49,061 nucleotides of DNA from Rhodothermus sp. (GTDB taxonomy: Bacteria > Bacteroidota > Rhodothermia > Rhodothermales > Rhodothermaceae), in NCBI GenBank assembly GCA_026989375.1, contig JALSJJ010000196.1:1-49061 (forward strand), read 5' to 3'. This document shows, in pieces, positions 2,251 through 23,761 of the stretch (positions within the stretch are counted from its first letter, which is position 1; each line of letters opens with the position of its first letter). The translations under genes were made by a program, and so were the position numbers. The notes under the pieces were generated by a model that worked only from the letters and a program-made list of their open reading frames with translations, had not been told where the DNA came from and searched no databases.

Positions 2251-2253
2251 AAC

Positions 2254-5897: not shown

Positions 5898-5922
5898 TAC
5901 AGGCTTAACCATTAAACCTGTA
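5898..5922. promoter_or_regulatory. Imperfect 25-bp dyad (operator or 5'-UTR hairpin)
   Basis: The left half is TACAGG-C-TTAA (5898-5908) and the right half TTAA-A-CCTGTA (5912-5922), separated by CCA. The 11-base arms have a single mismatch. The element ends 13 bases before the preferred ATG of the small gene at 5936 and lies in the gap between it and the divergent outer-membrane protein gene. It could bind a dimeric repressor or fold as RNA in front of the start codon. Confidence 0.5.
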
Positions 5923-5935
5923 AACGTTGTATTCG

Positions 5936-6148
5936 ATGATGAAGACTGACGTAGGCGAACAGGCCTTGAAGGCGGCCGAGCGGTACATTCAGGAAAACCT
6001 GCTGTTTCTCCAGGCGCACGTCCGTAGTCTCAAAGATCGCATGCGGGCGCTGCGCAAGGCCAACATGCTGACCCCGCAACGTAAATACAAAATCGTGGCC
6101 GAAATTCTGAGCACCACGGCCTACCTGCGTCCGGGAACCGACAACTGA
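5936..6148 (+). CDS. Small unrecognised helical protein
   Basis: This is a 70-residue, charged protein predicted to be mostly helical (residues 7-40 rich in A, E, K, R and L), with no membrane segment and no Cys pair. I do not recognise its family. Two adjacent ATGs (5936 and 5939) are better starts than the in-frame TTG at 5927. Coding is supported by GC-rich third positions and by the dyad directly upstream. Its last 28 bases overlap the end of the convergent NHL gene. It could be a small DNA- or protein-binding regulator, but nothing in the sequence proves that. Confidence 0.55.
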   Translation: MMKTDVGEQALKAAERYIQENLLFLQAHVRSLKDRMRALRKANMLTPQRKYKIVAEILSTTAYLRPGTDN

Positions 6149-8239: not shown

Positions 8240-8290
8240 GGTTTTTCTTCGATAGGGTTGGTCTGATGGCAGGGCCCGGCGCTAACCCGG

Positions 8291-8851
8291 CTACCTGGCG
8301 CGGGTTTCCGGTGAATCATAGAACGGATTGCGCTCGGGCCGTACCTCCCCTCGATAGATGGCGCTATATTCCAGGTAGTTCTGCGCGTAGCGGGCAATAC
8401 GCGCAATTTCTTCCTCGGAAAGCGTGCGCACCACACGTCCGGGCACCCCCAGCACCAGCGAACGCGGGGGCACTTGCATGCCGGGCGGCACCAGCGCCCG
8501 GGCGCCGATCAGGCTGTCGCGCCCGATCACCGCCCCATCCAGCACCACTGCCCCGATGCCAATCAGCACATTTTCCTCTACCGTACAGCCATGTAGCACG
8601 GCACCGTGGCCTACTGTTACCCGAGGACCTATCAGCGTAGGAGCCGTACCGCGCGTGACGTGAATAATTGCCCCGTCCTGGATATTGGAAGCCTCGCCGA
8701 TGCGGATCCAGTTCACATCGGCCCGCACGACGGCACCGTACCAGATGCTGGCATAGGGTTCCAGCGTTACATCTCCAATAACCACAGCATTCGGCGCAAT
8801 AAAATTGGTGGCATCGAAGCGTGGATAGGCGCCCAGAAAATCACGAATCAT
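8291..8851 (-). CDS. Gamma-carbonic-anhydrase-like (YrdA-type) hexapeptide protein
   Basis: This 186-residue protein forms a left-handed beta-helix from hexapeptide repeats (IGDVTL, IGEASN, IGPRVT, IGIGAV, IGRDSL). Metal-binding histidines typical of the gamma class are present: one in DGAIIHVT and two in VGHGAVLHG. Many YrdA-type proteins bind zinc without proven carbonic anhydrase activity, so the reaction is uncertain. Its ATG overlaps the mutS stop by 11 bases, pointing to co-translation. It is a paralogue of the paaY product encoded at 23109-23726. Confidence 0.88.
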   Translation of the reverse strand: MIRDFLGAYPRFDATNFIAPNAVVIGDVTLEPYASIWYGAVVRADVNWIRIGEASNIQDGAIIHVTRGTAPTLIGPRVTVGHGAVLHGCTVEENVLIGIGAVVLDGAVIGRDSLIGARALVPPGMQVPPRSLVLGVPGRVVRTLSEEEIARIARYAQNYLEYSAIYRGEVRPERNPFYDSPETRAR

Positions 8852-11537
8852 GGCGTGCTACGAGTCGCTTGAGTTCGTCCAGCAGCAATAGGGCCTCGAT
8901 AGGCGTCATGCGGTTGGGATCAAGCTGGCGCAGCCGTTCCTTGAGCTCCTCGGCCACAGGATCCGGTTCGGGCTGCGCGAAGAGCGAAAGCTGGAAGGCT
9001 GACGTATCGGCTGGAATATGCGCAGCGCGAGCCGAGCGCATCGTCCGGATCGGCTCTCCATCACCGGCCGGGGCCTCCACGACCAGATGTTGCGCCTCCA
9101 GATGGCGTAGAATCTCACGCGCCCGGCTAATGACCGGTTCGGGCAAACCGGCCATGCGGGCCACCTCAATGCCATAGGAATGGTCCGCGCCGCCCGGCAC
9201 CAGCTTATGCAGAAAGATGATTTTTCCATCGTGCTCTTCTACCTGCACGCGAAAATTCTTCACACGTGGAAAGCGTTCGGCCAGCTCGTTCAGCTCATGA
9301 TAATGCGTGGCAAAGAGCGTGCGAGCGGCCACCGAAGGTGTCTCGTGCAGATACTCGACAAGCGCCCAGGCAATCGACAGCCCGTCGAAGGTCGAGGTGC
9401 CCCGTCCGACTTCATCAAGTAGAATCAGGGAGCGTGGCGTGGCATTGTTGAGAATATTGGCTGTCTCGTTCATCTCAACGAGAAACGTGCTCTCGCCGGC
9501 GGCCAGGTTGTCCGAAGCGCCCACGCGCGTGAAGATGCGATCGACAATGCCAATGCGCGCGCGGCGAGCCGGCACGAACGAGCCGATCTGAGCCAGCAGC
9601 ACAATCAGCCCGGTCTGGCGCAGCACCACACTTTTGCCTGCCATGTTTGGCCCCGTGATGATCAGGATCTGCTGCGAGTGCGTATCCAGATAGATATCGT
9701 TTGGGATAAAGGGTTCACCGGGCGGGAGCGTGCGCTCGACCACCGGATGGCGCCCTTCTTCGATGAGCAGCTCCGTGCCCTCATGCAGCTCCGGTCGCGT
9801 ATAGTGGTAGCGGTCCGCCACTTCGGCCAGGCTGCAGAAGACATCCAGCATGGCCAAAAGCGACGCGTTGAGCTGCAGCTCGGCTGTCGCCTCGGCCACT
9901 TCCAGGCGTAGCCGGTTAAACAGCTCGGCCTCCAGACTGGCAATTTTTTCTTCGGCTGAAAGAATTTTTTCCTCGTACTCTTTCAGCTCAGGCGTGATGT
10001 AGCGTTCGGCGTTGACCAGCGTCTGCTTGCGAATGTAGTGCGGTGGGATTTTATCGCGGTGCGCGTTGGTAACCTCGATGTAGTACCCGAACACCTTGTT
10101 GAAGCCCACCTTGAGCGATGGAATCCCGGTGCGCTCGATTTCTTTCTGCTGCAGGCGGGCGATAAAGTCCTTGCCCGAACGCGCGATCTCGCGCAGCTCA
10201 TCCAGTTCCGGGCTGAAGCCATCACGGATCACCCCCCCATCGCTCAACGCAGCCGGTGGATCATCGACCAGCGCCTGACGGATGCGTTCGACGACCCGGG
10301 TGCAGAGCGTAAGCTGCTCGGCCAGCCGGCGCAGCGTGCTACAGGAGACGTCGCTCAGCGCCTGCTTGATGGGCGGAATCTGCTCAAGCGTCAGCCGCAG
10401 GTGCATCAGGTCGCGCGGCGTGGCGCGTCCGGTGCAGACGCGGGCGGCCAATCGTTCCAGGTCACCTATCTGTCGCAGCTCTTCACGCAGGTGCTCGCGC
10501 AGGTGGCGATCTCGCACGAGTGCCTCGACGGCTTCCAGGCGTTTTTCGATCTGCCGTACGTTTTTGAGGGGCCGTAGTAGCCAGCGCCGGAGCAGCCGCC
10601 CGCCCATCGGCGTGAGCGTCTCGTCCAGGATCTGTACGAGCGAGCCTTCCCGCGTGCCCTCCTGCAGCGAAGCGACCAGCTCCAGGTTACGCTTCGTCTG
10701 CGGATCAAGCACCATGTACTCATCGGTGGCGTAGCGCGTCAGCCGGCGCACATGGGGCAAGCGTCCTTTCTGCGTCTCGCCCAGATAGTGCAGTGCCGCA
10801 CCGGCCGCCCGCAGCCCCAGCCGCAACTCCTCTACGCCGAACCCTTTGAGCGAGTGCGTCTTGAAATGCCGGAGCAGGACTTCGTAGGCATAGTCGAAGC
10901 TGAAGACCCAGTCCTCCTGGGGTGTTACCACGAACGAAAGGCCCCGAACGTCCTGCAGTCGCTCCCGCTGCCGCTTGTCGACCAGCACCTCAGCCGGTTG
11001 AATGGTCTGCAGCAGTTCTTCCAGACGATGCGCCGGCGCCTCTGTTACCGAAAACTCACCGGTCGAAGCGTCCAGAAAGGCCAGACCAATACGATCCCGT
11101 TCGCTCCGCTCGGTGCCCCAGACCACTGCAGCCAGATAGTTAGCCCGCTTGGGATCAAGTAGCTGCTCATGAAACGAGACGCCCGGTGTGACCACTTCGA
11201 CCACATCGCGCTTGACCACCTTGCGGGCGTACTTGGGATCTTCGAGCTGCTCGCAGATGGCCACCCGGTAGCCCGCCCGCACCAGCTTGGGTAGGTAGTT
11301 GTCCAACGCATGGTGCGGAAAGCCAGCCAGCGGCACGTCGGCTGCCTGACCATTGGCCCGTTTGGTTAGCGTAATGCCCAGCACCCGGCTGACGATATGG
11401 GCGTCTTCGTCGAACGTTTCATAAAAGTCCCCCATCCGGAACAGCAGAATGGCATTCGGATAGCGGGCTTTGATCTTGTAGTACTGCCGCATCAGCGGCG
11501 TTTGCCCCACCTGCTTTTCCGACCGATTGGCTGCCAT
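8841..11537 (-). CDS. mutS: DNA mismatch repair ATPase MutS
   Basis: MutS binds mismatches and starts repair. The mismatch-reading FxE is in FRMGDFYE near residues 33-40 of the chosen start. The core and clamp domains follow, then Walker A GPNMAGKS near residue 627, Walker B LILLDEVGRGTSTFDG, and a helix-turn-helix dimer region. The C-terminal SALLLLDELKRL-like tail (EALLLLDELKRLVA) is typical. I start at the ATG at 11537 (898 residues), because the 38 codons upstream in the open frame look non-coding and family proteins begin close to TPLMRQYYKIK. It heads the leftward run with the hexapeptide protein, purD and NHL genes; mutL is not in the window. Confidence 0.96.
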   Translation of the reverse strand: MAANRSEKQVGQTPLMRQYYKIKARYPNAILLFRMGDFYETFDEDAHIVSRVLGITLTKRANGQAADVPLAGFPHHALDNYLPKLVRAGYRVAICEQLEDPKYARKVVKRDVVEVVTPGVSFHEQLLDPKRANYLAAVVWGTERSERDRIGLAFLDASTGEFSVTEAPAHRLEELLQTIQPAEVLVDKRQRERLQDVRGLSFVVTPQEDWVFSFDYAYEVLLRHFKTHSLKGFGVEELRLGLRAAGAALHYLGETQKGRLPHVRRLTRYATDEYMVLDPQTKRNLELVASLQEGTREGSLVQILDETLTPMGGRLLRRWLLRPLKNVRQIEKRLEAVEALVRDRHLREHLREELRQIGDLERLAARVCTGRATPRDLMHLRLTLEQIPPIKQALSDVSCSTLRRLAEQLTLCTRVVERIRQALVDDPPAALSDGGVIRDGFSPELDELREIARSGKDFIARLQQKEIERTGIPSLKVGFNKVFGYYIEVTNAHRDKIPPHYIRKQTLVNAERYITPELKEYEEKILSAEEKIASLEAELFNRLRLEVAEATAELQLNASLLAMLDVFCSLAEVADRYHYTRPELHEGTELLIEEGRHPVVERTLPPGEPFIPNDIYLDTHSQQILIITGPNMAGKSVVLRQTGLIVLLAQIGSFVPARRARIGIVDRIFTRVGASDNLAAGESTFLVEMNETANILNNATPRSLILLDEVGRGTSTFDGLSIAWALVEYLHETPSVAARTLFATHYHELNELAERFPRVKNFRVQVEEHDGKIIFLHKLVPGGADHSYGIEVARMAGLPEPVISRAREILRHLEAQHLVVEAPAGDGEPIRTMRSARAAHIPADTSAFQLSLFAQPEPDPVAEELKERLRQLDPNRMTPIEALLLLDELKRLVARHDS

Positions 11538-11787: not shown

Positions 11788-12753
11788 ATGGGCAACGAAG
11801 CCAAACTGTTAGAAACGTTCCAGAAGCGTATCAACGCCGGTGAAAAGATTGAGCCGCGCGACTGGATGCCCGAGCGTTACCGACGCCAGCTTATTCGCAT
11901 GATGTCGCAGCATGCCCATTCGGAGATTGTGGGCATGTTGCCCGAAGGGAACTGGATTACACGCGCGCCCAACCTGCGCCGTAAGATGGCTCTGCTGGCT
12001 AAGGTGCAGGACGAAGCCGGTCATGGGCTCTATCTCTACAGCGCCACCGAAACGCTGGGCGTTGATCGTTATCAGCTCATTCAGGATCTGCTCGAAGGGC
12101 GGGCTAAGTACTCGAACATTTTCAACTACCCCACACTCACCTGGGCCGACGTAGGCGTCATCGGCTGGTTCGTGGACGGTGCGGCTATTGTCAACCAGAC
12201 CATGCTGGCCAAGACGTCCTATGGCCCTTATGCCCGCGCCATGATTCGCATCTGTAAGGAAGAAGCTTTTCACAAACGCCAGGGATACGAGATCTGCGTA
12301 ACGTTGGCGCGGGGCACCCCGGAGCAGCGTCGGATGTTGCAGGACGCCATCAACCGCTGGTGGTGGCCCACGCTCATGATGTTTGGCCCGCCGGACGATC
12401 AGTCGCCCAACAGTGCCGAACTATTGCGCTGGAAGGTCAAGCGTAAAACGAACGACGAGCTGCGTCAGCACTTCATTAACATTACGGTGCCGCAGGTGCT
12501 GGCCCTGGGCATGACCATTCCTGATCCGGAACTGCGCTATGACGAAAAAACCGGTAACTGGCTGATTGGCCCCATCGACTGGGATGAATTTTGGCGGGTT
12601 ATCCGGGGCCACGGTCCCTGCAATCGCGAACGGCTACGCGCCCGCCGCAAAGCCCATGAAGAAGGCGCCTGGGTTCGTGAAGCGGTGCAAGCTTACGCCC
12701 GTAAGCGCCAGCAACGTGCTGCCCAACCTGTTGCAGCAATCAGTCAGGAATGA
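11788..12753 (+). CDS. paaA: Phenylacetyl-CoA 1,2-epoxidase, catalytic subunit A
   Basis: PaaA is the di-iron subunit of the multicomponent epoxidase that opens aerobic phenylacetate breakdown by epoxidising the ring of phenylacetyl-CoA. The ferritin-like fold shows its iron ligands in [13 protein letters not shown] (ExxH, about residues 74-80) and [12 protein letters not shown] (about 156-167). The 321-residue length fits the family. The ATG at 11788 follows a leader with a plausible promoter. It is the first gene of paaABCD; the next start lies 1 base after its stop. Confidence 0.96.
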
Positions 12754-12754
12754 T

Positions 12755-13039
12755 ATGGAAAACGGATTGCGTCTGTGGGAAGTGTTTGTGCAATCCCGCA
12801 CCGGTAAACCCCACGAACACGTGGGGAGTGTGCGGGCCTCGCACGCTGAGATGGCCCTGCAACATGCGCGCGACGTCTATGCACGTCGGGGCCCTGTGGT
12901 CAGCATCTGGGTAGTTCCCACCGAAGCCATCTACGCTACCCAGCCCGGCGATGAGGGGCCGTTCTTCGACCCGGCCGATACCAAGCCCTATCGGCATCCC
13001 CTTTTCTACAAGGTGCCGCACGGGGTAAAGAATATCTGA
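12755..13039 (+). CDS. paaB: Phenylacetyl-CoA epoxidase subunit B
   Basis: PaaB is the small bridging subunit that holds PaaAC heterodimers together in the epoxidase. The 94-residue product starts MENGLRLWEVF and contains the family signature FVQSRTGKPHEHVGSV followed by ASHAEMALQHARDVY. I take the ATG at 12755 and not the much longer open frame upstream, which would lie inside paaA. It is followed by an unusually long 189-bp gap before paaC, whereas these genes are normally packed tightly. Confidence 0.95.
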   Translation: MENGLRLWEVFVQSRTGKPHEHVGSVRASHAEMALQHARDVYARRGPVVSIWVVPTEAIYATQPGDEGPFFDPADTKPYRHPLFYKVPHGVKNI

Positions 13040-13044
13040 AAGCA

Positions 13045-13225
13045 TGAGGCTGCTCTCCAGTTGTGAGCAGCAAGGGTGCTGAGCCCCTGCCACTGGATCC
13101 TGGAAGCAGGTGCTAACCTGTCGGCGGGAAGTGCTGTGGCAACATAAACGAAGGTATGGTAGCGTTGGGATGAAGGTGGCGCAGGTGTAGACCCATTGCC
13201 CAAAAACAGGATACGTGTTGCTGCG
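13045..13225 (+). ncRNA. Candidate structured RNA or intron remnant between paaB and paaC
   Basis: This non-coding gap has several pairing elements: a perfect 7-bp stem GCTGCTC (13049-13055) / GAGCAGC (13065-13071), then GGGT/GCCC, CCTGC/GCAGG and AGGT/ACCT stem-loops, and a longer-range CGCAG/CTGCG pair near the paaC start. The segment beginning GTGAG at 13063 reminds me of the 5' domain of bacterial group II introns, but no maturase gene, domain V or 3' end is present. It could also be a riboswitch-like leader; it lacks the core boxes of a cobalamin riboswitch. Identity is unproven. Confidence 0.35.
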
Positions 13226-13228
13226 AAC

Positions 13229-14011
13229 ATGAACCTTGAAACCCTTGATACTGCTATTCGTCCGGCACTGTTCGAGTATCTGCTGCGCCTGGGCGACGAT
13301 GCGCTGATTCTGGGTCATCGTCTTTCGGAATGGTGTGGACACGGTCCGTACCTCGAAGAGGACATTGCACTGGCCAATCTGGCACTTGACTGTCTGGGCC
13401 ATGCCGAGGCGTTGCTGACACTGGCCGGTCAGGTCGAAGGCGAAGGCCGCACAGCCGATGATCTGGCCTTTCTGCGGGATGCCTACGAATTTCGGAATGC
13501 GCAAATGGTCGAGCTGCCGCGCGGCGACTTTGCCTTCACCATCGTCCGGCAGTTTCTGTTTGCCACCTACGCCTGCCTGCTCTACGAAGCGCTGCAGCAG
13601 AGCGTTTTTGAACCACTGGCCGGCATCGCCGCGAAGGCGCTCAAAGAGATGCGCTACCATCTGCGGCATAGCCGCGAATGGATCCGCTGCCTGGGCGACG
13701 GCACCGAAGAAAGTCACCGCCGGACGCAGAATGCCCTGGACGAGCTGTGGATGTACACCGGCGAGCTGTTTGAGGTGGACGACACCCTGCAAACCCTTAC
13801 TCAGGCCCACATTGCACCCGACATGACCGCGCTCTACTCAGCATGGAACGCACAGGTCATGACTACCCTCCAGGAGGCCACCCTGACGGTTCCAGAAAAT
13901 CCGCCCTACATGGCGACGGGGGGACGACGCGGCCATCATACGGAACACCTGGGCTACTTGCTCGCTGAGATGCAATTTCTCCAGCGAGCCTACCCGGGTG
14001 CCAAGTGGTAG
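13229..14011 (+). CDS. paaC: Phenylacetyl-CoA epoxidase structural subunit C
   Basis: PaaC is the ferritin-like partner of PaaA that has lost the di-iron site and stabilises the catalytic subunit. The protein has 260 residues from the ATG at 13229, close to the family length; an in-frame TTG at 13196 would add 11 residues from the structured gap and is less likely. Recognisable blocks include LGDDALILGHRLSEWCGHGP near the N terminus, a central helical pair, and GGRRGHHTEHLGYLLAEMQ at the C terminus. paaD follows after 24 bases. Confidence 0.94.
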   Translation: MNLETLDTAIRPALFEYLLRLGDDALILGHRLSEWCGHGPYLEEDIALANLALDCLGHAEALLTLAGQVEGEGRTADDLAFLRDAYEFRNAQMVELPRGDFAFTIVRQFLFATYACLLYEALQQSVFEPLAGIAAKALKEMRYHLRHSREWIRCLGDGTEESHRRTQNALDELWMYTGELFEVDDTLQTLTQAHIAPDMTALYSAWNAQVMTTLQEATLTVPENPPYMATGGRRGHHTEHLGYLLAEMQFLQRAYPGAKW

Positions 14012-14035
14012 CCGTCAAACCCTTTCCTACCGACC

Positions 14036-14539
14036 ATGACGCCTGCCGACATTCTGGAAGCGCTGACGGAAGTGCGGGATCCAGAGATTCCGGTCCTGAA
14101 CATTGTGGAAATGGGCATTGTGCGGGACGTGCGTCTGGAGAACGACACGGTGCATGTCGACATCACGCCCACCTACACCGGCTGTCCTGCCATGCGCACG
14201 ATCGAAAGTGAGATCGTGCGCACCCTGCAGGCTCGTGGATTCCAGCAGGTGGTCGTACACAAAGTATTTCGCGAACCCTGGACAACAGACTGGATGACCG
14301 ACGAAGCCCGCGAAAAACTTCGAGCCTATGGGATTGCGCCGCCCCCTCCTCGCGCTGAAGAAGCACCGGACCTGATTCCTCTGCCCTTTTTTGTGGAACG
14401 CAATGAGCCGTCGGTTCCCTGTCCTTTCTGTGGATCAGAACAGACACGCCAGACGAGTGCCTTCGGCTCGACCGCCTGTAAAGCCCTCTTCTTCTGCGAA
14501 GCCTGCCGTCAGCCGTTTGAGTACTTTAAGCCGCTCTGA
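14036..14539 (+). CDS. paaD: Phenylacetate pathway assembly protein PaaD
   Basis: PaaD is needed for an active epoxidase and is thought to help iron-sulfur or di-iron centre maturation. The N-terminal half is a MIP18/DUF59 domain (EVRDPEIPVLNIVEMGIV, then PTYTGCPAM with its conserved Cys). The C-terminal half carries a zinc-ribbon-like pair, CPFCGSEQTRQTSAFGSTAC and FFCEACRQPFEYF. The 167-residue length is normal. It is the last rightward gene of this block; the expected paaE reductase does not follow, and the next gene is convergent 13 bases away. Confidence 0.94.
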   Translation: MTPADILEALTEVRDPEIPVLNIVEMGIVRDVRLENDTVHVDITPTYTGCPAMRTIESEIVRTLQARGFQQVVVHKVFREPWTTDWMTDEAREKLRAYGIAPPPPRAEEAPDLIPLPFFVERNEPSVPCPFCGSEQTRQTSAFGSTACKALFFCEACRQPFEYFKPL

Positions 14540-14552
14540 CACGCGGCGCTTC

Positions 14553-16235
14553 TCACTTGATGCGATACCCCCCTTCTTCATTGGCAAAAATCCAGGCCAC
14601 GACCTCGCCGATCTCGATCGTGTCGTGCAGATAGGTAGTACGGGTAATGGAAGCGGTACCCTGCGTGTGCAGAAACGGCTTGGCCGCCATCATGCGCTCG
14701 AAACGTTCCTGCCAGCGCCGCATGTTAACCGGTCGCAGATCGACCCATCCCTTACAGGCCCAGCGGTCAATGTCTTCAGGGGTTACCGGTACCTCGTTGT
14801 AGATGCTTTCGGGGATATTGATGAACGGTCCTCGGATAAGCTGCTGGCCGTCGGGTGCCAGAATGGGCACACCGATCGAAATGATCTGATTACGCAGCGC
14901 TGCATTGGCTTCCAGGAAGCGAAAGAGCGTCTCGGCCACCTCCTCAGCCGGTGTCTGGCAGACGGCCGTCAGCGTTTCATAGTTGAGCTTGAGTAGATGC
15001 GCCTCGTAGAGCAGTTTGGACAGCTCAGGGGGCCCCAGTTGCCCGAGCGCTACGCTGTGTCCATTGGATTCCCGTTCCAGTTGGCGCAGCCGCCGCAGGG
15101 CGGTGTGGCGCAGTACGCCGGCCCGGTAGCTGGGCACCATCACGTTGCTGTCGATACCTGCGATGATATCGTGACCGGTATTACTGCCTTTGATTTCCAG
15201 GACCACCTGCTCGGCAATCTCCTCGGGCGTGAGGAATTCCATCTGTCCGATGTGCGTGATGGTTTCGAATTCGCCCCGTGCGAAAAAGCCGTTTTCTCCG
15301 GTATCAACGCCAGCCATCACCAGTTCGCCCTGCTTCTGATAGTGGCAGTCATCTTCACGCAGCACCAGGCGATCCTGCAGCGGTTCACGGCGCCCCTCAT
15401 AAACAAACTGCGGTCGGCCTCGCCGCCGCACCGGCTGGAGCGCCACGCGCCGGTAACCGATCATGGCAGCCGGCTTCACTTCCTTGACCAGTGGGCCGCC
15501 CGGCGTGCGGGCCATCAGAAACAGCAATCCTGTATGGGCAAACGCCATGGCTGTCTTCATCATCAGCGGCACGCTGGGCCGATCTTCGCTATGCGTATAG
15601 GGAATGTTGAGTCCCATGCCGCCCGTGCCTGTCGTGCCGATCTTTACGTAGACACGCGTGCCCACCTCGCACATGGCGCGGTGGAGCATCCGGATATGCC
15701 GGATAAGCTGCAAGGCTGCCTGAGAGATGAGCAGGGTCTCGACATCGGTCCTCAACGCCTCCCGGGCGGTCGGATCTTCGGGCGCCTGCTCAAGTTGCCG
15801 CAGGGTATCGTGCGTCCTGAGGCTCAGCGGCTCTACCTCCTGGTAGCTGAGCGCTGTGGCCGTATTGATGCAGTCCACAATCACATCAGGCCGGTGCTCT
15901 CGGATAAGCCGCACCAAGACCGAGCGCTCGTAAGCAGCATCGATGTCGCCAAAGAGATCTTCATACAGCGCCTCCCGATAATCAGGATTGCCCAGCAATT
16001 GCTCGCGCGGCAATTCCCGAAAATCCTCCCGCACAAACACATTCCCCCACTCGCCCACAAATTCCACCTGCGGAAACTCCTGCTGTACCTCGGCGAGCAG
16101 TTCTTCGACTTCCTGGCGAAGCAGGCTCGCCACGATCACTTTTCGGGGATGCAACTGCCGGCTTACTTCCCGCACGATCTGCGAGCCAACCAGGCCAGCT
16201 CCTCCCAGAATCAGAAAGCACTCATCACGCGCCAT
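14553..16235 (-). CDS. Unusual Rossmann-fold dehydrogenase/epimerase-like protein
   Basis: A nucleotide-binding GGAGLVGS loop at about residues 11-18 after a hydrophobic strand, plus a KVIVAS second strand and VDCINTATALSY, indicate an NAD(P)-binding Rossmann fold of the extended SDR type. At 560 residues it is about twice the length of a typical SDR, and the C-terminal 300 residues match nothing I recognise. No classic YxxxK is certain; Tyr in YVKIGTTGTGG occupies the right region, with a Lys two residues later. It is the last gene of an enoyl-CoA hydratase-E1-Rossmann operon (29-bp gap after E1), so a role in acyl or oxoacid metabolism is plausible but inferred. Confidence 0.6.
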   Translation of the reverse strand: MARDECFLILGGAGLVGSQIVREVSRQLHPRKVIVASLLRQEVEELLAEVQQEFPQVEFVGEWGNVFVREDFRELPREQLLGNPDYREALYEDLFGDIDAAYERSVLVRLIREHRPDVIVDCINTATALSYQEVEPLSLRTHDTLRQLEQAPEDPTAREALRTDVETLLISQAALQLIRHIRMLHRAMCEVGTRVYVKIGTTGTGGMGLNIPYTHSEDRPSVPLMMKTAMAFAHTGLLFLMARTPGGPLVKEVKPAAMIGYRRVALQPVRRRGRPQFVYEGRREPLQDRLVLREDDCHYQKQGELVMAGVDTGENGFFARGEFETITHIGQMEFLTPEEIAEQVVLEIKGSNTGHDIIAGIDSNVMVPSYRAGVLRHTALRRLRQLERESNGHSVALGQLGPPELSKLLYEAHLLKLNYETLTAVCQTPAEEVAETLFRFLEANAALRNQIISIGVPILAPDGQQLIRGPFINIPESIYNEVPVTPEDIDRWACKGWVDLRPVNMRRWQERFERMMAAKPFLHTQGTASITRTTYLHDTIEIGEVVAWIFANEEGGYRIK

Positions 16236-16264
16236 AGGGTATCAGGGCTTATGCTCATTGGATT

Positions 16265-18400
16265 TTAAAAGGCAAGCAGTGCACGCATGGCTGTCGCAAT
16301 CCGGGCCACATCGGGTACGGTTGCTTCGAGTAGCTGTGGGTGGTAGGGAATCGGTATATCGGGGACGGCCAGCCGCTCGACCGGTGCATCCAGGTACGTG
16401 AAGGCATCGCGGACCAGTACGGCGGCAATCTCTGCCCCGAAACCGGCTGTCAACGTATCCTCATGCACGATCAGGCATCGGTTGGTTCGCTGCACCGAAG
16501 CCAGCACGGTGTCCCGATCCCAGGGTTGTAGCGTACGCAGATCGATGATTTCGGCATCTACGCCAGCTTCCTCACAGGCCGCTTCACACCGATGGACCAT
16601 GGCGCCCCAGGTAACCACGGTGAGCGCCTCGCCGGTCCGCACGATCCGCGCTCGCCCAAACGGTAGCACGAAGTCGTCACCGGGGTAGGGACGCCGAGCC
16701 GTCGGATGATCCAGCAACAGCCTGTGCTCGAAAAAGATCGTAGGATTGAGTGAACGCATAGCAGCTCGGAGCAGGCCCACAGCGTCTTCAGCATTGGACG
16801 GATAGGCCACCTGCCAGCCGATTGCGTGTACCCAGCGCACCTCGTCCGAGACACTGTGCCAGGGATCTCCCACGCGAGCAAAACCGCCGGGCATGCGCAC
16901 CACAATCGGTGCGGCAAAGCGGTTGGCCGTACGCCAGCGGATCGTCCCACAGTTGTTGAGCTGTTCAGTAGCCGGATCCGCATACTTTCGGAACTGAATC
17001 TCGGCTACCGGCATCAGGCCGGCCAGTGCCATACCGACGGCCCGCCCGACGATGCCCTCTTCGGACAGGCTGGTATCGAACACGCGGGCTTCGCCGAATT
17101 CCTCCTGCAAGCCCAACGTGGCCGTATGCACACCGCCCTTCGGCCCCACGTCTTCGCCAAAGACGACCAGCCGCGGGTTGATGCGCAGCTCGTGGGCCAG
17201 CGTCCGGCGGATTGCCTCGATCATGTTGATCCGTGGCGGCTCCGGTCGGGGCCGGTCGGTACCTTTCGGAAGCGTGACGCCTTCCGGTGCCATACCACCG
17301 GCCTGCTGCACCTCCGGAGTACCATCAGCGCCTACCTCGGCAAAGACGTAACGGGTCACCCGCGCGGGATCCGGATCCGGCCGCCTGAGTGCAGCAGCCA
17401 GGGACTCTTCCACTTCCCGGGCCACTTCTGCTTCCAGTTGCTTCCAGGCATCGTCCGACAGCACCGAAGGCACCAGAAACCGACGCAGCGCACGCAGTGG
17501 ATCACGCGCCCGTTCTGCTTCCAGCACTTCGGGCGGTTTGTAGGCCTGGTTGTCGTGGCCGGAGTGGCCCGAAAGTCGGGGCATGGTCAACCGTAACAGG
17601 ACCGGTCCCTCGCCGGCGCGCACTCGGGTCACCGCCTCGTGCAACAGACGGGCGGCCGCTTCCGGTTGCGTGCCGTCGCCGTCCAGTACGTACAGATTGC
17701 TAAAAGCGGCGAGGTTGCTGGCAATATTACCGCCCGGGGTCTGCAGATGACCCGGCACCGAAATCGCGTACCCGTTGTCTTCGATATAGAAGAGAACAGG
17801 CAATCGCAGCGTGGTGGCAATGTTCAAGGCGGCCCAGAAACCATTCGTGGCTACCGATCCCTCGCCGCCGTGCACCACGGCCAGCGCCCCCTGGTAGTCC
17901 GCCTCCTGAAGCACATCGCGCCGGTAGCAGATGGCCTGCGCCCAGCCGACACCCGGTGTGTACTGCGAACCGACATCCCCGGCCATAGGTAAGACAGTCG
18001 GGCCGTTGCGGCCGGGCAGGTTGCACACCACGCCCACATCCCGTCCATCACTGTAGGCGCCTGCTTTACCCATCGAAGCCGCCAGGGCTTCTTCAGGGGA
18101 AACGCCCAGCGCCAGCATCAGCGGGCGCGATCGATAGTAGGTGCTGACCCCGTCTTTCGGGTGCGTCAGCAGTTGGCCGAGCAGTACCTGGGCCAGCTCG
18201 TGCCCTTTCGCCGAAAACTGGTAACGCACCTTACGTTCGGGGAGCAGACGTGTCTCTTCCAGTTCGTCAAGATAGCGAGCCATCAACACCAGTCGGGCCA
18301 CCCGCTGCCAGTCGAAGGGAGCATCCGGCCCGGTCGTTGGCGCAGCTCGGCGCTTTTTGCGTTGCGTGCCTTTTGTGCGGTTTTGTTTGGCCCCCATCAC
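16265..18400 (-). CDS. Fused 2-oxoacid dehydrogenase E1 alpha-beta (branched-chain type)
   Basis: This is a thiamine-diphosphate E1 with both subunits in one 711-residue chain. The alpha part (about 30-365) holds the ThDP motif, GGEGSVATNGFWAALNIA near 178-195 ending with EDNGYA near 207. A basic Lys/Arg leader precedes it. The beta part (about 390-711) holds the catalytic-Glu segment FDTSLSEEGIVGRAVGMA and a C-terminal transketolase domain (VVTWGAMV, DLRTLQPWD). E1 decarboxylates a 2-oxoacid and passes the acyl group to the E2 lipoamide; the 2-oxoisovalerate class is most likely. No E2 or E3 is adjacent. It begins 4 bases after the enoyl-CoA hydratase stop. Confidence 0.88.
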   Translation of the reverse strand: MMGAKQNRTKGTQRKKRRAAPTTGPDAPFDWQRVARLVLMARYLDELEETRLLPERKVRYQFSAKGHELAQVLLGQLLTHPKDGVSTYYRSRPLMLALGVSPEEALAASMGKAGAYSDGRDVGVVCNLPGRNGPTVLPMAGDVGSQYTPGVGWAQAICYRRDVLQEADYQGALAVVHGGEGSVATNGFWAALNIATTLRLPVLFYIEDNGYAISVPGHLQTPGGNIASNLAAFSNLYVLDGDGTQPEAAARLLHEAVTRVRAGEGPVLLRLTMPRLSGHSGHDNQAYKPPEVLEAERARDPLRALRRFLVPSVLSDDAWKQLEAEVAREVEESLAAALRRPDPDPARVTRYVFAEVGADGTPEVQQAGGMAPEGVTLPKGTDRPRPEPPRINMIEAIRRTLAHELRINPRLVVFGEDVGPKGGVHTATLGLQEEFGEARVFDTSLSEEGIVGRAVGMALAGLMPVAEIQFRKYADPATEQLNNCGTIRWRTANRFAAPIVVRMPGGFARVGDPWHSVSDEVRWVHAIGWQVAYPSNAEDAVGLLRAAMRSLNPTIFFEHRLLLDHPTARRPYPGDDFVLPFGRARIVRTGEALTVVTWGAMVHRCEAACEEAGVDAEIIDLRTLQPWDRDTVLASVQRTNRCLIVHEDTLTAGFGAEIAAVLVRDAFTYLDAPVERLAVPDIPIPYHPQLLEATVPDVARIATAMRALLAF

Positions 18401-18404
18401 CTCG

Positions 18405-19190
18405 TCAGGATTTACGCGCCCGCCTTCGCTCCAGAAAAGCGGTCATACGCTGGTATTTTTCTTCGTCCTCAAAGAGCACGGCCTGCATAATGGTCTCCAG
18501 CGTCAGTCCGGCGTCGGTGCTCATCTCGGCGGCCGCATTCAGCGCCATCTTGGCAAAACGGACAGCCAGCGGACTACCTGCTGCGATCTCTCTGGCCAGC
18601 GCCCGGGCTTTTTCCAGCACCTGATCGTCCGGAACCACGTAGTTGACCAGCCCGATCGCCAGTGCCTCGGCCGCCTCAATGATGCGACCGGTAAAAATCA
18701 ACTCACGCGCTTTACCCATGCCTACCAGACGCGGAAGTCGATACGTAGCACCAGCACCGGGAATAATACCCAGCCGGACTTCGGGCTGGCCGAAGCGGGC
18801 ACTCTCTCCAGCAACCCGCAGGTCGCAGGCCATCGCCAGCTCACACCCACCCCCCAGGGCCCAACCACGTACCGCCGCGATGGTCGGCACCGGAAACTGC
18901 TCAATCTCTCGAAACAGGCTGTTGTTGATCTGCCGTAGCGCTTCGGCCCGTCCCCGCTCTCGCAGCTCGGCAATATCGGCCCCGCTGACAAATGCCTGAT
19001 TGCCAGCCCCGGTAAAGATCAGCACGCGCACTTCGTCGCGAGCGGCCAGCTGCTCCAGCAGCCGACGGACCTCCTGAACCATCTTCAGGTTAAGGGCATT
19101 CCGTACCTCCGGACGATTGAAGGTACAGCACACAATGCCCTGGTCGTCTGCTTCGACCTGCAACGTGGAAAACGAAAACACCGGCATCAT
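18405..19190 (-). CDS. Enoyl-CoA hydratase (possible PaaF)
   Basis: This crotonase-fold protein hydrates 2-enoyl-CoA. The oxyanion-hole segments are GAGNQAFVSGADIAEL and AVRGWALGGGCELAMACD, and the catalytic Glu pair is in FGQPEVRLGIIPGAGATYRLPR, so activity as a hydratase is credible. The tandem ATGs at 19190 and 19187 give about 261 residues; the longer open frame adds non-coding leader. In this locus it could be the 2,3-dehydroadipyl-CoA hydratase PaaF, which is otherwise missing. It heads the leftward operon with the fused E1 and Rossmann genes and faces paaG across a 182-bp divergent promoter region. Confidence 0.9.
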   Translation of the reverse strand: MMPVFSFSTLQVEADDQGIVCCTFNRPEVRNALNLKMVQEVRRLLEQLAARDEVRVLIFTGAGNQAFVSGADIAELRERGRAEALRQINNSLFREIEQFPVPTIAAVRGWALGGGCELAMACDLRVAGESARFGQPEVRLGIIPGAGATYRLPRLVGMGKARELIFTGRIIEAAEALAIGLVNYVVPDDQVLEKARALAREIAAGSPLAVRFAKMALNAAAEMSTDAGLTLETIMQAVLFEDEEKYQRMTAFLERRRARKS

Positions 19191-19214
19191 AACATTGGGA
19201 CTGAAAGCGCTTCT

Positions 19215-19244
19215 ATTATACCAAACCTTTCCCCCTCTCTTCAA
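19215..19244 (-). promoter_or_regulatory. Candidate promoter for the ech-E1-Rossmann operon
   Basis: On the minus strand TTGAAG (19244-19239) is followed after 18 bases by a perfect TATAAT (19220-19215), preceded by TGG as in extended -10 sites. The start codon lies 25 bases downstream. An 8-bp palindrome AAGCGCTT (19205-19212) falls near the predicted transcript start and could be an operator. The rightward promoter of paaG must lie in the same gap but was not identified. Confidence 0.5.
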
Positions 19245-19372
19245 GCCGCCTGTTTCCTCAGGCCAATTTTTGGACAGACTTCGCATCGCGTCCTCCTGTC
19301 GGGGACTTTCCGTTTTAGATTTTCTTTTCATAAGTTTTCTTCCCTGGAACCGTGCTCAACCTGCGAAGCACT

Positions 19373-20164
19373 ATGAATTACCGTTTCATTCGTTATGAGC
19401 GCGACAACGGCGTAGCGACGCTCACGCTGAACCGGCCGGACGTGCTGAACAGCTTTCACCGGCCGATGGCCGACGAAACCATCGATGCCCTGCAGCGGGC
19501 TGCCGACGATCCGGCAGTGCGTGCTATTGTGCTGACAGGAGCCGGACGCGCCTTCTGTGCCGGCCAGGACCTGCAGGCCGTGCTACCGCGCGAAGGTGAA
19601 CCAGCTCCGGACCTCGGCGAGATTGTGCGCGCCCAGTACAACCCGATCATCCGGCTCATCCGGCATACCGAAAAGCCCTTTGTAGCGGCCGTCAACGGAG
19701 CAGCCGCCGGCGCCGGAGCCAACATTGCGCTGGCCTGCGATTTCGTGGTGGCCGCCGACCATGCCAGCTTCATTCAGGCCTTCTCGCGCATCGGCCTGAT
19801 CCCCGACAGCGGCGGTACATTTCTGCTGCCTCGTCTGGTTGGACAGGCCCGCGCAACGGCCCTGATGATGCTGGCTGACAAGCTTCCAGCTTCCGAAGCC
19901 CATGCGATGGGCCTGATCTATCAGGTGTGCCCGGCCGACCGCCTGATGGACGAAGCCATGACGCTGGCACGCCGCCTGGCTGCCATGCCTACCCGTGCCC
20001 TGGGTATGATCAAGCGGGCCCTGAACCGCTCCTTCACCAGCGACCTGGATACCCAGCTTGAGCTGGAAGCCGAACTGCAGGCCGAAGCCGGCCGCACACA
20101 CGACTACCAGGAAGGCGTCGCCGCCTTCCTCGAAAAACGCACGCCGGTCTTTCAGGGACGTTAG
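19373..20164 (+). CDS. paaG: Ring 1,2-epoxyphenylacetyl-CoA isomerase
   Basis: PaaG, a crotonase-fold isomerase, converts the epoxide of phenylacetyl-CoA to oxepin-CoA and later shifts a double bond. Oxyanion-hole segments LTGAGRAFCAGQDLQAV and AVNGAAAGAGANIALACDF are clear; the QAFSRIGLIPDSGGTFLLPR block carries the catalytic Asp typical of PaaG in place of the hydratase Glu. The ATG at 19373 gives 263 residues starting MNYRFIRYERDNG; a GTG at 19352 is also possible. It opens the second paa block, with paaH starting 12 bases downstream. Confidence 0.92.
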   Translation: MNYRFIRYERDNGVATLTLNRPDVLNSFHRPMADETIDALQRAADDPAVRAIVLTGAGRAFCAGQDLQAVLPREGEPAPDLGEIVRAQYNPIIRLIRHTEKPFVAAVNGAAAGAGANIALACDFVVAADHASFIQAFSRIGLIPDSGGTFLLPRLVGQARATALMMLADKLPASEAHAMGLIYQVCPADRLMDEAMTLARRLAAMPTRALGMIKRALNRSFTSDLDTQLELEAELQAEAGRTHDYQEGVAAFLEKRTPVFQGR

Positions 20165-20176
20165 CCACCTGCCACC

Positions 20177-21373
20177 ATGACCCCACCACTCACTACTGCT
20201 ACTCCCGTGGGCGTTGTCGGCGCAGGCACAATGGGACGCGGCATCGCCCAGGTGGCCGCCACGTTCGGCCATCCGGTCCTGCTCCACGACAGCAATCCCC
20301 AGGCGCTGGAAGACGCCCGCGCTTTCCTCGAACGCATCCTGCGCCGACTGGTCGAGAAAGGCAAGCTGGCACCGGGGCAGGATGCCGAGATCCTGAACCG
20401 GATTACGTTGCTGAGCGAGGGACTGGAGCCGCTGGCAGCCTGCGGGCTGATCATCGAAGCGATTGTCGAGGATCTGGCGGCCAAACAGACCCTTTTTGCC
20501 CAGTTGGAACGACTGGTCGCCTCGGACACCATTCTGGCTACCAACACATCGTCGCTATCGGTAACGGCCATTGCTTCGGCCTGCCAGCGGCCGGAACGGG
20601 TGCTCGGGTTGCATTTTTTCAATCCGGCTCCCCTGATGCCGCTGGTCGAAATAGTACCGGGCGTGGCCACCGCCTCCGAAGTAGTGAGCCGTGCACGCTC
20701 GTTGGTGGAAGCCTGGGGCAAAACGCCGGTCGTCGCCCGCGACACGCCGGGCTTCATCGTCAACCGGGTGGCCCGCCCTTTCTACGGCGAAGCCCTGCGT
20801 ATTCTGGAAGAAGGCATTGCCGACGCACCTACCATTGACTGGGCCATGCGCACGTTCGGGGGCTTCCGCATGGGTCCCTTCGAGTTGATGGATCTGATCG
20901 GCAACGACATCAACTTCCGCGTAACCGAAACGCTCTGGAAAGCGTGCTTCTACGAACCTCGCTACCGACCTTCGTTTACGCAGCAACGCATGGTCGAAGC
21001 TGGCCGGCTGGGACGCAAAGCCGGTATCGGCTTTTACGACTACCGGGAAGGCGCCACCAACCCGGATCCTGTTACCGACCCGACGCTTGGTAAACAGATC
21101 TTTCAACGAATCCTGGCCATGCTGATCAACGAAGCTGTTGATGCCGTCTTCTGGCGCATTGCCTCGCCGGCCGACATTGACCGGGCCATGCAACTGGGCG
21201 TAAACTACCCGAAGGGATTGCTCCACTGGGCTGACGAGCTGGGGTTACCGACTGTACTGGGCTGGCTGGAATCGCTCTACGACACCTACCGTGAAGATCG
21301 CTACCGTCCCAGCCCGCTCTTCCGCCAGATGATCAATCGCAATGCGCGCTTCTTTGAAGAAGCCGACACTTGA
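20177..21373 (+). CDS. paaH: 3-hydroxyadipyl-CoA dehydrogenase
   Basis: This NAD-dependent 3-hydroxyacyl-CoA dehydrogenase oxidises 3-hydroxyadipyl-CoA late in the phenylacetate pathway. The NAD loop is GVVGAGTMGRGIAQ at about residues 12-25, and ATNTSSLSVTAIA and VLGLHFFNPAPLMPLVE (catalytic His) follow. DTPGFIVNRVARPFYGEAL starts the C-terminal dimer domain, and a second half-domain ends the 398-residue chain, as in PaaH. It lies between paaG (12-bp gap) and paaI (8-bp gap), so the genes are surely co-transcribed. Confidence 0.94.
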   Translation: MTPPLTTATPVGVVGAGTMGRGIAQVAATFGHPVLLHDSNPQALEDARAFLERILRRLVEKGKLAPGQDAEILNRITLLSEGLEPLAACGLIIEAIVEDLAAKQTLFAQLERLVASDTILATNTSSLSVTAIASACQRPERVLGLHFFNPAPLMPLVEIVPGVATASEVVSRARSLVEAWGKTPVVARDTPGFIVNRVARPFYGEALRILEEGIADAPTIDWAMRTFGGFRMGPFELMDLIGNDINFRVTETLWKACFYEPRYRPSFTQQRMVEAGRLGRKAGIGFYDYREGATNPDPVTDPTLGKQIFQRILAMLINEAVDAVFWRIASPADIDRAMQLGVNYPKGLLHWADELGLPTVLGWLESLYDTYREDRYRPSPLFRQMINRNARFFEEADT

Positions 21374-21381
21374 GTCCTGCC

Positions 21382-21840
21382 ATGAGCCGTCACGACCTTA
21401 TGCCTGCGGACACACAAAACGAAACGCCGGAGCACCGGGCCCGTCGGATCGTGGACCAGATGATGGCTCGGGATGCTTTCAGCCAGTGGCTGGGGATCGA
21501 AGTGCTGACGGTGGCGCCTGGCCGGGCCGTCGTACGCATGACCGTGCGCCCGGAAATGCTGAACGGCTTTGCCGTCGCCCATGGGGGAATCGCTTTTGCC
21601 CTGGCTGATAGCGCCCTGGCCTTTGCCTCGAATACTTGCGGCTCGGTGACCATGACGCTCGAAAGCTCGGTATTCTTTGCCACGCCTGTCCGGGCCGGCG
21701 ATGTGCTTACAGCCACGGCTGAAGAAGTATCGGCCGGCAACCGCGTGGCCCTCTACGACGTGGTGGTGACGCGGGCCGATGGAACCCGTGTAGCCTTCGT
21801 GCGCGGTACCGTGTACCGCACGAAACAGGCCCACGCCTGA
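21382..21840 (+). CDS. paaI: Hydroxyphenylacetyl-CoA thioesterase PaaI
   Basis: PaaI is a hotdog-fold thioesterase that releases CoA from dead-end hydroxyphenylacetyl-CoA and related esters. The key block VAHGGIAFALADSALAFASN carries the catalytic Asp and the nucleophile-positioning Gly pair, and ESSVFFATPVRAGD is the second family strand set. The ATG at 21382 gives 152 residues; a TTG at 21370 overlapping the paaH stop is less convincing. It sits within the paaG-Z operon. Confidence 0.92.
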   Translation: MSRHDLMPADTQNETPEHRARRIVDQMMARDAFSQWLGIEVLTVAPGRAVVRMTVRPEMLNGFAVAHGGIAFALADSALAFASNTCGSVTMTLESSVFFATPVRAGDVLTATAEEVSAGNRVALYDVVVTRADGTRVAFVRGTVYRTKQAHA

Positions 21841-21874
21841 TCCGTTTGTTCGGAAGCGCTTTTCAACTTGCAAC

Positions 21875-21886
21875 CAACCCGGGTTG
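21875..21886. promoter_or_regulatory. Perfect 12-bp palindrome in front of paaJ
   Basis: CAACCCGGGTTG ends one base before the paaJ ATG at 21888, where a ribosome-binding site would be expected; no Shine-Dalgarno sequence is visible there. It may be an operator half-site or chance. A second AAGCGCTT palindrome, like the one at the ech promoter, lies slightly upstream at about 21854-21861. Confidence 0.25.
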
Positions 21887-21887
21887 T

Positions 21888-23093
21888 ATGCGGGACGCCT
21901 ATATCATCGACGGGGTACGCACCCCTATCGGACGCCTGGGCGGCGCGCTGGCCACCGTACGGGCCGACGACCTGGCCGCCCACGTGCTCCATGCCCTGCT
22001 GGACCGACATCCGGAAATCGACCCGGCCGCTATCGACGACGTGTATATGGGCTGCGCCAACCAGGCCGGCGAAGACAATCGCAACGTGGCCCGCATGGCG
22101 CTGTTGCTGGCTGGCCTGCCCCCCAGCGTGCCGGGGGTCACGATCAACCGCCTCTGCGCCTCCGGCATGAGCGCCGTCGTAGAGGCAGCCCGTGCCATCC
22201 GAGCCGGCGATGGCGACCTGTACCTGGCCGGCGGCATTGAGCACATGACGCGTGCCCCCTTCGTACTCTCTAAAGCCAGTCGCCCCTTCGGACGCGACGT
22301 CGAACTCTACGACACCAGCCTGGGCTGGCGCTTCGTCAATCCAAAAATGGAAGCCCGCTACGGCGCCGAGCCGATGGGTTGCACTGCCGAGAACCTTGTG
22401 GAACTGTACGGCATTGCTCGCGAAGATCAGGATCTGTTCGCCTATCGCTCCCACAAGAAGGCAGCGGCGGCTCGTGAGCAGGGGCGCCTGGCCCTGGAAA
22501 TCGTTCCGGTCGAAGCCCCCCAGCCCAAGGCACCTCCTCGAATGGTGCAGGACGACGAACACATCCGACCGGATACCACGCTCGAAGCACTCGCCAAGCT
22601 GCCGCCGGTTTTTCGAAAGGGCGGTACCGTGACAGCCGGCAATTCCTCTGGCCTCAACGATGGGGCCTGTGCATTGCTGCTGGCGTCGGAAGAAGCCGTC
22701 CGCCGCTTCGACCTGAAGCCAAAGGCGCGCATCGTCAGCTCCGCCGTCGTCGGTGTCGAGCCTCGTATCATGGGCATCGGGCCCGTAGAGGCAGCCCGCC
22801 GGGCGCTGCGGCGAGCAGGCCTGACGTTCGACGACCTGGACGTGATCGAACTCAACGAAGCCTTTGCCGCGCAGGTGCTGGCCTGCGTGCGGCAATGGGG
22901 ACTGGCCGACGACGACCCACGCCTGAACCCCAACGGTGGTGCTATTGCACTTGGCCATCCGCTGGGTATGTCGGGTGCCCGGTTGATCCTGACCGCTACC
23001 ATCGAGCTGGAGCAGCGCCAGGCCCGCTACGCCCTCTGCACGCTCTGCGTGGGCGTGGGCCAGGGCATGGCTACCGTCATCGAACGGATATAG
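21888..23093 (+). CDS. paaJ: 3-oxoadipyl-CoA/3-oxo-5,6-dehydrosuberyl-CoA thiolase
   Basis: This thiolase cleaves the C8 and C6 3-oxoacyl-CoA intermediates, releasing acetyl-CoA and finally succinyl-CoA. The active-site cysteine is in TINRLCASGMSAV (near residue 90), the ELNEAFAAQVLAC block and GGAIALGHPLGMSGAR (His) follow, and the terminal CTLCVGVGQGMA carries the second Cys. The protein has 401 residues from the ATG at 21888, which begins with the family MRDAYIIDGVRTPIGR; the frame extends upstream without a likely start. PaaY follows after 15 bases. Confidence 0.94.
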   Translation: MRDAYIIDGVRTPIGRLGGALATVRADDLAAHVLHALLDRHPEIDPAAIDDVYMGCANQAGEDNRNVARMALLLAGLPPSVPGVTINRLCASGMSAVVEAARAIRAGDGDLYLAGGIEHMTRAPFVLSKASRPFGRDVELYDTSLGWRFVNPKMEARYGAEPMGCTAENLVELYGIAREDQDLFAYRSHKKAAAAREQGRLALEIVPVEAPQPKAPPRMVQDDEHIRPDTTLEALAKLPPVFRKGGTVTAGNSSGLNDGACALLLASEEAVRRFDLKPKARIVSSAVVGVEPRIMGIGPVEAARRALRRAGLTFDDLDVIELNEAFAAQVLACVRQWGLADDDPRLNPNGGAIALGHPLGMSGARLILTATIELEQRQARYALCTLCVGVGQGMATVIERI

Positions 23094-23108
23094 CAACCTG
23101 TGCAGACC

Positions 23109-23726
23109 ATGGCCAACATCTTTGAATTCGAAGGCTTTCGCCCGGTCGTTCACGAAAGTGCCTTCATTCATCCCAACGCGACGGTGATCGGCAACGTCGT
23201 GATCGGCCGCAATGTGTACGTGGCTGCCGGTGCCGTCATCCGAGGCGACTGGGGGGAAATCATCATCGAAGACGGCTGCAACGTGCAGGAAAACTGCGTC
23301 ATCCACATGTTTCCCGGAATCACCGTCGTCCTGGAAGAGGCGGCCCACATCGGGCACGGCGCCATCATCCACGGTGCCCGAATCGGCCGCAATGCACTGG
23401 TGGGCATGAACGCCGTGGTGATGGACCATGCCGTGGTCGGTGCCGGCAGCATCGTCGGAGCGCTGACACTGGTCCCGGAACGCATGGCGATTCCCGACCG
23501 CAAAATCGCTGTAGGCGTGCCGGCCCGCATTGTAGGCGACGTCAGCGATGAACGACTGGCCTGGAAAACGGCTGGCACCCGGCTCTATCAACAGCTTCCG
23601 GAACAGTTGCGTCGGAGCCTCCGACCCTGTGAGCCCCTGCGCGAGATACCTCCCGACCGCCCTAAAATGGAAGCGATTTACAAAACCTTCCGCGAAACCA
23701 TTGCCGAACTTCAACACGATACATAA
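23109..23726 (+). CDS. paaY: PaaY-type hexapeptide protein (thioesterase-like)
   Basis: PaaY is a gamma-carbonic-anhydrase-fold trimer; characterised relatives hydrolyse CoA thioesters of stalled phenylacetate intermediates. Hexapeptide turns (VIGNVVIGRNVYVAAGAV, IIIEDGCNVQENCVIH) and the metal histidines in CVIHMF, IGHGAIIHGARIG are visible. Length is 205 residues. The ATG at 23109 is chosen over a GTG at 23100. The C-terminal extension (RPKMEAIYKTFRETIAEL) is characteristic of PaaY. It is a paralogue of the mutS-linked protein at 8291-8851 but clearly belongs to the paa operon. Confidence 0.9.
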   Translation: MANIFEFEGFRPVVHESAFIHPNATVIGNVVIGRNVYVAAGAVIRGDWGEIIIEDGCNVQENCVIHMFPGITVVLEEAAHIGHGAIIHGARIGRNALVGMNAVVMDHAVVGAGSIVGALTLVPERMAIPDRKIAVGVPARIVGDVSDERLAWKTAGTRLYQQLPEQLRRSLRPCEPLREIPPDRPKMEAIYKTFRETIAELQHDT

Positions 23727-23761
23727 GGCCCCGTTAGCCCCACAACCAACTGCCAGATACC

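Follow-up and report, generated by a model that had tools for sequence, protein, structure and literature searches.

What are a 2-oxoacid dehydrogenase E1, an enoyl-CoA hydratase and a protein of unfamiliar type doing in the middle of a gene cluster for phenylacetate (PAA) catabolism? The question is raised by a 49,061-nucleotide stretch of DNA from a heat-loving Rhodothermus, referred to here as the window. A leftward unit in it lies between rightward paaABCD (11788–14539, forward strand), whose phenylacetyl-CoA epoxidase would consume the product proposed below, and rightward paaG, paaH, paaI, paaJ, paaY and paaZ (19352–25837, forward strand).

Organization of the operon and its locus

An earlier note, made from the sequence alone, had described three tightly spaced leftward genes separating paaABCD from paaG–Z, and the reading frames and gaps agree with that description. 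The hydratase gene (ECH, crotonase family; 18405–19190, reverse strand), which encodes 261 residues from the ATG at 19190 or 308 from the ATG at 19331, is separated by 4 bases from the E1 gene (16265–18400, reverse strand; 711 residues), and the E1 stop codon by 29 bases from the gene for the Rossmann protein (14553–16235, reverse strand; 560 residues), a predicted SDR-fold protein of an unnamed conserved family with a GGAGLVG motif. A sigma-70-like promoter for the operon, TTGAAG-18-TATAAT (19215–19244, reverse strand), lies 24 bases ahead of the ATG at 19190 and within the longer reading frame (18405–19331). As the scan by itself performs near chance (2 found versus 1.2 expected), the weight of this call comes from conservation: by a pattern search, a similar promoter precedes ECH in all six Rhodothermus genomes having ECH at this position, with TTGAA and GGTATAAT conserved and the spacer sequence variable (two loci of the comparison set, L007 and L140, are apparently one and the same contig). 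Because of this conserved element, a start at 19190 (or 19187/19181) is preferred over the longest-frame start at 19331; 19190, also the earlier choice, is most likely correct.

The flanking genes were named from NCBIfam matches, except paaB (12755–13039, forward strand), which was named from its sequence and position. PaaA, PaaC and PaaD matched TIGR02156, TIGR02158 and TIGR02159 (524.6, 313.7 and 192.5 bits), and PaaZ (1038.5 bits) and the 3-oxoadipyl-CoA thiolase (636.7 bits) likewise scored above cut-off; the epoxidase subunits PaaA, PaaC and PaaD, PaaZ and the thiolase, by which a PAA catabolon is recognized, are thus all in place. PaaG (344.4 versus 345.15) and PaaI (115.7 versus 118.9) fell slightly below their cut-offs, and PaaH (480 versus 669.4) and PaaY (237 versus 319.6) below theirs; PaaE was not found among the window proteins scanned. 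A further PaaY match, a gamma carbonic anhydrase-like gene at 8291–8851, adjoins mutS and is not part of the paa block. In a published review (PMC9493321), PaaK catalyzes the usual first step of the pathway and PaaF the eighth. The classical catabolon shares PaaABCD, PaaG, PaaH, PaaI, PaaJ, PaaY and PaaZ with the present cluster, which differs in that the genome lacks PaaK as judged by TIGR02155 and in that an operon with E1 and Rossmann genes is set inside the cluster. No PaaK match (TIGR02155, E ≤ 1e-20) was found in any of the 12 PaaA-positive Rhodothermales genomes.

Across 114 Rhodothermales genomes, a close E1, the Rossmann protein and PaaA each occurred in 12 genomes, which are the same ones for all three (G000, G003, G008, G050, G058, G155, G296, G030, G306, G309, G310 and G313). 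These carriers span families f1, f3 and f51, the last of which is divided between three genomes with all three genes and three (G308, G311 and G312) with none. A trio without paa, which would have spoken against the reading in the earlier note, was found in none of the 114 genomes. Since the genes are linked, the 12 carriers reflect co-inheritance of one block rather than 12 independent events. The conserved order is paaG–Z facing away, then ECH-E1-(E2)-Rossmann gene, then paaDCBA convergent with it, the block being split over contigs in G309, G306 and G313. In G030, an insertion of ∼10 kb separates the Rossmann gene from paaD (L132, about 1060–10900), and a reading frame named by eye as transposase-like lies between ECH and E1 (L055, 3968–4900); the operon there is in the course of disruption, perhaps through mobile DNA. 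This same locus was considered as a trio without paa and rejected, paaA being found ∼11 kb further on.

That the fused E1 has no adjoining E2 or E3 gene, as first noted, is true of the window, and no E2 gene was found at the locus in any of the seven Rhodothermus carriers, where E1 and the Rossmann gene close up. All five carriers outside Rhodothermus have an E2 gene between the two; the G030 copy (L055, 7099–8301) possesses lipoyl, E3-binding and catalytic domains. Three E2 matches lie elsewhere in the genome of the window: one on C225 (33% identity to the operon E2) that adjoins another E1 alpha gene, a stand-alone one on C226 (40% identity) where the contig ends, and one on C160 in frame with an E1 match. 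The Rhodothermus E1 would, we infer, use an E2 encoded elsewhere, for which the stand-alone gene on C226 is the candidate.

The fused E1 and its distribution

The E1 is a complete alpha/beta fusion, with the alpha domain and both beta domains on one chain (PF00676, PF02779 and PF02780, all above cut-off); every NCBIfam match was below its cut-off, and no curated name applies. GEG at 179–181, DNGYAIS at 208–214 and H515 are present, which we take to be the ThDP/Mg motif (GEG...N) and the catalytic histidine of E1 enzymes. Its closest solved relatives are the E1 components of pyruvate, branched-chain (2-oxoisovalerate) and Thermus 2-oxoacid complexes, the beta half matching a 2-oxoisovalerate dehydrogenase beta subunit at E = 1.7e-69 and the alpha half the 1um9 alpha subunit at E = 3.5e-31. 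The domains are of the same kinds as those of the branched-chain enzymes 1qs0/2bp7, presumably of the Pseudomonas putida type, and 1um9–1umd, presumably from Thermus thermophilus; in contrast to these, the window E1 is fused and its distribution tracks PaaA.

These relatives, and a GEG...DNGYAIS motif of the E1 alpha type, would suit a 2-oxoacid dehydrogenase of branched-chain or general specificity whose location in a paa cluster is incidental. Three observations argue against such an enzyme, which we consider unlikely. Firstly, the same genome has a separate fused E1 (G000:C53), a member of another clade that occurs across Rhodothermales with or without paa. In a maximum-likelihood tree of 59 sequences (41 from the window clade, a subset of the loci of all carriers, and 18 general), the general fused E1s form a separate clade with 100/100 support. 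Secondly, the two clades carry different, nearly fixed residues at 66 positions, including D512, P513 and W514 just before H515, the presumed catalytic histidine. Thirdly, the window clade tracks PaaA in 59 of 60 genomes, as detailed below. In Rhodothermales, close E1s share 62 to 100% identity with the window E1 and the next matches at most 43%; an E1 match at E ≤ 1e-60 is found in 113 of the 114 genomes irrespective of PaaA. A third fused E1 type with ∼36% identity to the window E1 is present in many Rhodothermales (e.g., G003:C1:1921379–1923361).

Across the phylum, 296 evenly drawn genomes were scored for the E1 clade (E ≤ 1e-140, the weakest found being 5e-233), PaaA (above its own cut-off) and PaaK (E ≤ 1e-60), yielding 60, 100 and 65 genomes, respectively; the Rossmann protein was found in 60, and none of the 65 PaaK matches exceeded the curated cut-off. 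PaaA was present in 59 of the 60 E1-positive genomes as compared to 41 of the 236 E1-negative ones (59/1/41/195; Fisher 1e-33), a p-value that overstates independence since both genes are clustered in families. Counted by hand per family, PaaA occurred in 11/11 E1-positive and 14/39 E1-negative families (p = 2e-4). No family in the sample lists mixes PaaA-positive genomes with and without E1, which leaves about a dozen lineages as the basis of the pattern.

Concerted movement of the block as one piece, with the E1 and Rossmann genes as passengers, would also produce a shared distribution. In Rhodothermales all the genes are linked, making their common distribution one event, and the Rossmann tree, which joins Rhodothermales with Anaerolineae (100/98) far from the other Bacteroidota members, is consistent with transfer. 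In other families, however, E1 and PaaA remain concordant on different contigs or >0.5 Mb apart; in two single-contig genomes, G043 and G059, E1 lies 0.8 and 0.6 Mb from paaA, and linkage is therefore not the cause of the match everywhere. An island effect of this kind is accordingly held to be very improbable, and a functional tie between E1 and PAA catabolism is preferred.

PaaK was absent from all 60 E1-positive genomes and present in 6 of the 41 genomes with PaaA and no E1, so the prediction that the latter carry PaaK held only weakly. The 35 of 41 without PaaK (E ≤ 1e-60) point to another entry route in the phylum, and absence of PaaK extends beyond the E1 carriers; its step could be taken over by an acyl-CoA ligase unrelated to it. 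PaaK and PaaA are anti-correlated in the sample (PaaA in 6/65 PaaK-positive versus 94/231 PaaK-negative genomes), since most PaaK-like matches fall in family f23, which has small genomes and in which PaaA was not found.

A putative partner of E1 is encoded in family f14, in which 16 of the 28 E1-positive genomes were inspected. In 15 of the 16, E1 is immediately preceded by a codirectional gene for a HisC-type aminotransferase, with identities to the G262 copy down to 61%; the exception, G108, is also the sole E1-positive genome without PaaA. The aminotransferase scores above the curated HisC cut-off (311.9 versus 276.55, NCBIfam) and may for that reason be a histidine enzyme. Histidinol-phosphate aminotransferases come first among its solved relatives, with a putative phenylalanine aminotransferase (4r2n) third. 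At 13 E1 loci outside f14 and Rhodothermales, a gene for this aminotransferase, for E2 or for the Rossmann protein was not found within ∼7 kb. As judged by sequence and distribution, the E1 is a 2-oxoacid dehydrogenase component tied to the PAA pathway. This link, earlier drawn from position only, is now strongly supported by the identical distribution in 114 Rhodothermales genomes, the 59 of 60 concordance across the phylum, the lack of PaaK in every carrier and the aminotransferase partner in f14.

The Rossmann protein

The earlier note called the Rossmann protein unfamiliar and could not place its C-terminal 300 residues. No Pfam-A or NCBIfam family matches the protein at E ≤ 0.001, and only weak Rossmann families recur when 15 members are compared with Pfam at E ≤ 1. 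Sequence searches of the PDB, with the protein or a 15-row profile, matched its first 60 to 90 residues and gave one chance-level match in the C-terminal part; a search of a plasmid collection gave no match. Structure prediction had been proposed in the earlier note as a check. In an AlphaFold model from 15 rows (pLDDT 80, pTM 0.60), residues 1 to 371 are predicted to be SDR-like, resembling many SDRs at Z ∼15 to 16 (best Z 16.3, 4.0 Å over 231 residues, with many chains tied), while the C-terminal 189 residues, folded alone, reached a pLDDT of 69.5 and had no Foldseek match at E ≤ 0.001.

Conservation in the family is high: across 57 sequences, 92 positions are conserved to at least 97%. G11, G14 and G17 of the GxxGxxG motif are present in all 55 sequences having that column, and K227 is invariant (57/57). 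This lysine, on helix 222–242 of the model, may correspond to the SDR lysine; four residues before it stands V, Q, P, M or K, and the tyrosine of the SDR YxxxK motif did not figure among the residues listed there. The protein shares the GxxGxxG motif with the SDR superfamily (e.g., 3u4c, YwfH; 6jh7, AerF), which its modeled residues 1 to 371 would also resemble, but differs in lacking the tyrosine at K227−4, in ∼190 extra C-terminal residues and in having no family entry. The fold and motif suggest that it probably binds a dinucleotide; a low-confidence guess at its reaction would be redox chemistry with an oxoacid or a CoA thioester as substrate.

The family occurs in Rhodothermales, other Bacteroidota, Ignavibacteriota, Chloroflexota, Acidobacteriota, Gemmatimonadota and KSB1. 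One scan found 15 Rossmann loci, 14 of which were aligned with the window protein (42–92% identity), the fragment L006 being left out; on that Chloroflexi contig (2260–3507), the Rossmann gene immediately follows a codirectional thiolase gene. The phylum count of 60 includes two fragments and excludes 24 further weak matches (E between 1e-5 and 1e-3). PaaA was found in 32/60 carriers versus 68/236 non-carriers (odds 2.8, p = 7e-4), an association not counted as evidence because it is not independent of kinship. Neighbors inspected elsewhere include ftsA-ftsZ with a P5C dehydrogenase gene, scpB-pseudouridine synthase, uracil phosphoribosyltransferase, FtsX permeases and pyruvate kinase, and no recurring functional theme was found among them; at L056 and L057, the Rossmann gene sits between ftsA-ftsZ and the P5C dehydrogenase gene.

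One possible explanation is a dedicated pathway enzyme, such as an oxidoreductase that supplies phenylpyruvate to E1 from phenyllactate or phenylalanine, as a counterpart to the aminotransferase of f14. Such a role is compatible with the preferred explanation of E1, agrees with the predicted SDR-like N-terminal fold, and would account for the Rossmann gene adjoining E1 or E2 in Rhodothermales, where all 12 carriers have it and the other 102 genomes do not. It is nonetheless highly unlikely, considering that 28 of the 60 phylum carriers lack PaaA, that the protein is independent of E1 among PaaA-positive genomes (18/59 with E1 versus 14/41 without), that the gene elsewhere stands beside ftsA-ftsZ, scpB or uracil phosphoribosyltransferase genes, and that the YxxxK tyrosine is not conserved. 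The suggested functional partnership of the Rossmann protein therefore fits Rhodothermales, in which the trio never occurs without paa, but not the wider sample, in which the gene alone is widespread without paa and does not track E1. Its reaction is probably also needed by bacteria without paa, and a general role beyond PAA is likelier than a paa-specific one.

A proposed entrance from phenylalanine

The operon is best explained as an entrance to the PAA pathway that bypasses PaaK, converting phenylpyruvate derived from phenylalanine to phenylacetyl-CoA, with the hydratase acting as PaaF; we regard this as reasonably probable, the substrate being suggested by the genomic associations described above. 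An aminotransferase would first convert phenylalanine to phenylpyruvate. The fused E1, assigned to its class from sequence, would then decarboxylate phenylpyruvate on ThDP and pass the phenylacetyl group to a lipoyl E2, which with E3 would yield phenylacetyl-CoA, NADH and CO2; the E2 would come from the operon in the relatives and from elsewhere in Rhodothermus (candidate G000:C226). Phenylacetyl-CoA would then enter the established pathway through PaaABC(DE), PaaG, PaaZ and PaaJ, followed by the operon hydratase as putative PaaF, PaaH and PaaJ again, to give acetyl-CoA and succinyl-CoA.

The hydratase is a crotonase (Pfam ECH_1, E = 2e-68), and its best NCBIfam model is PRK05809, a short-chain enoyl-CoA hydratase (270.7 bits). 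That it might be the missing PaaF was suggested earlier and is plausible from the locus, but the protein scores below the curated PaaF equivalog cut-off (226.7 versus 371 bits) and higher with other hydratase models; its solved relatives include Escherichia coli PaaF (4fzw), though not as the nearest. ECH lies inside the block in 11 of the 12 Rhodothermales carriers. The exception is G155, a Rhodothermus relative without a hydratase gene between E1 and paaG (L054, 12211–12369), and the PaaF step there must fall to another hydratase. From its place in the locus, the operon hydratase probably performs the PaaF step.

The proposed conversion is reminiscent of that by PglB/PglC of Streptomyces pristinaespiralis, reported to be pyruvate dehydrogenase-like and to turn phenylpyruvate into phenylacetyl-CoA in phenylglycine biosynthesis (PMC7089894, PMC10685826). 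As described there, PglB/PglC are of the alpha/beta E1 type but consist of two subunits in an antibiotic pathway, whereas the window E1 is one fused polypeptide that paa links to catabolism; the likeness is one of description. The literature searched, which covered subscription journals only in small part, yielded no report of an E1 that serves these bacteria as an entrance without PaaK. The complex is of a known kind and the pathway is known; the variant is new. A broader claim, that the E1 clade is the main PaaK-free aerobic entrance to PAA catabolism in at least 11 families of the wider Bacteroidota and that the Rhodothermales SDR-fold protein is an atypical enzyme of the same pathway, appears distinctly unlikely.

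With the Rossmann protein comes a conserved family of bacterial proteins that has no name in Pfam or NCBIfam. Of wider consequence for the phylum, 94 of the 100 PaaA-positive genomes lack a recognizable PaaK (E ≤ 1e-60), leaving the start of the phenylacetyl-CoA pathway in them unexplained, and for 59 of these the PaaA-linked E1 clade offers an answer that can be tested directly. The clade would help annotators to separate phenylpyruvate from branched-chain E1 enzymes, and a phenylpyruvate E1 would account for the absence of the usual entry enzyme from these bacteria.
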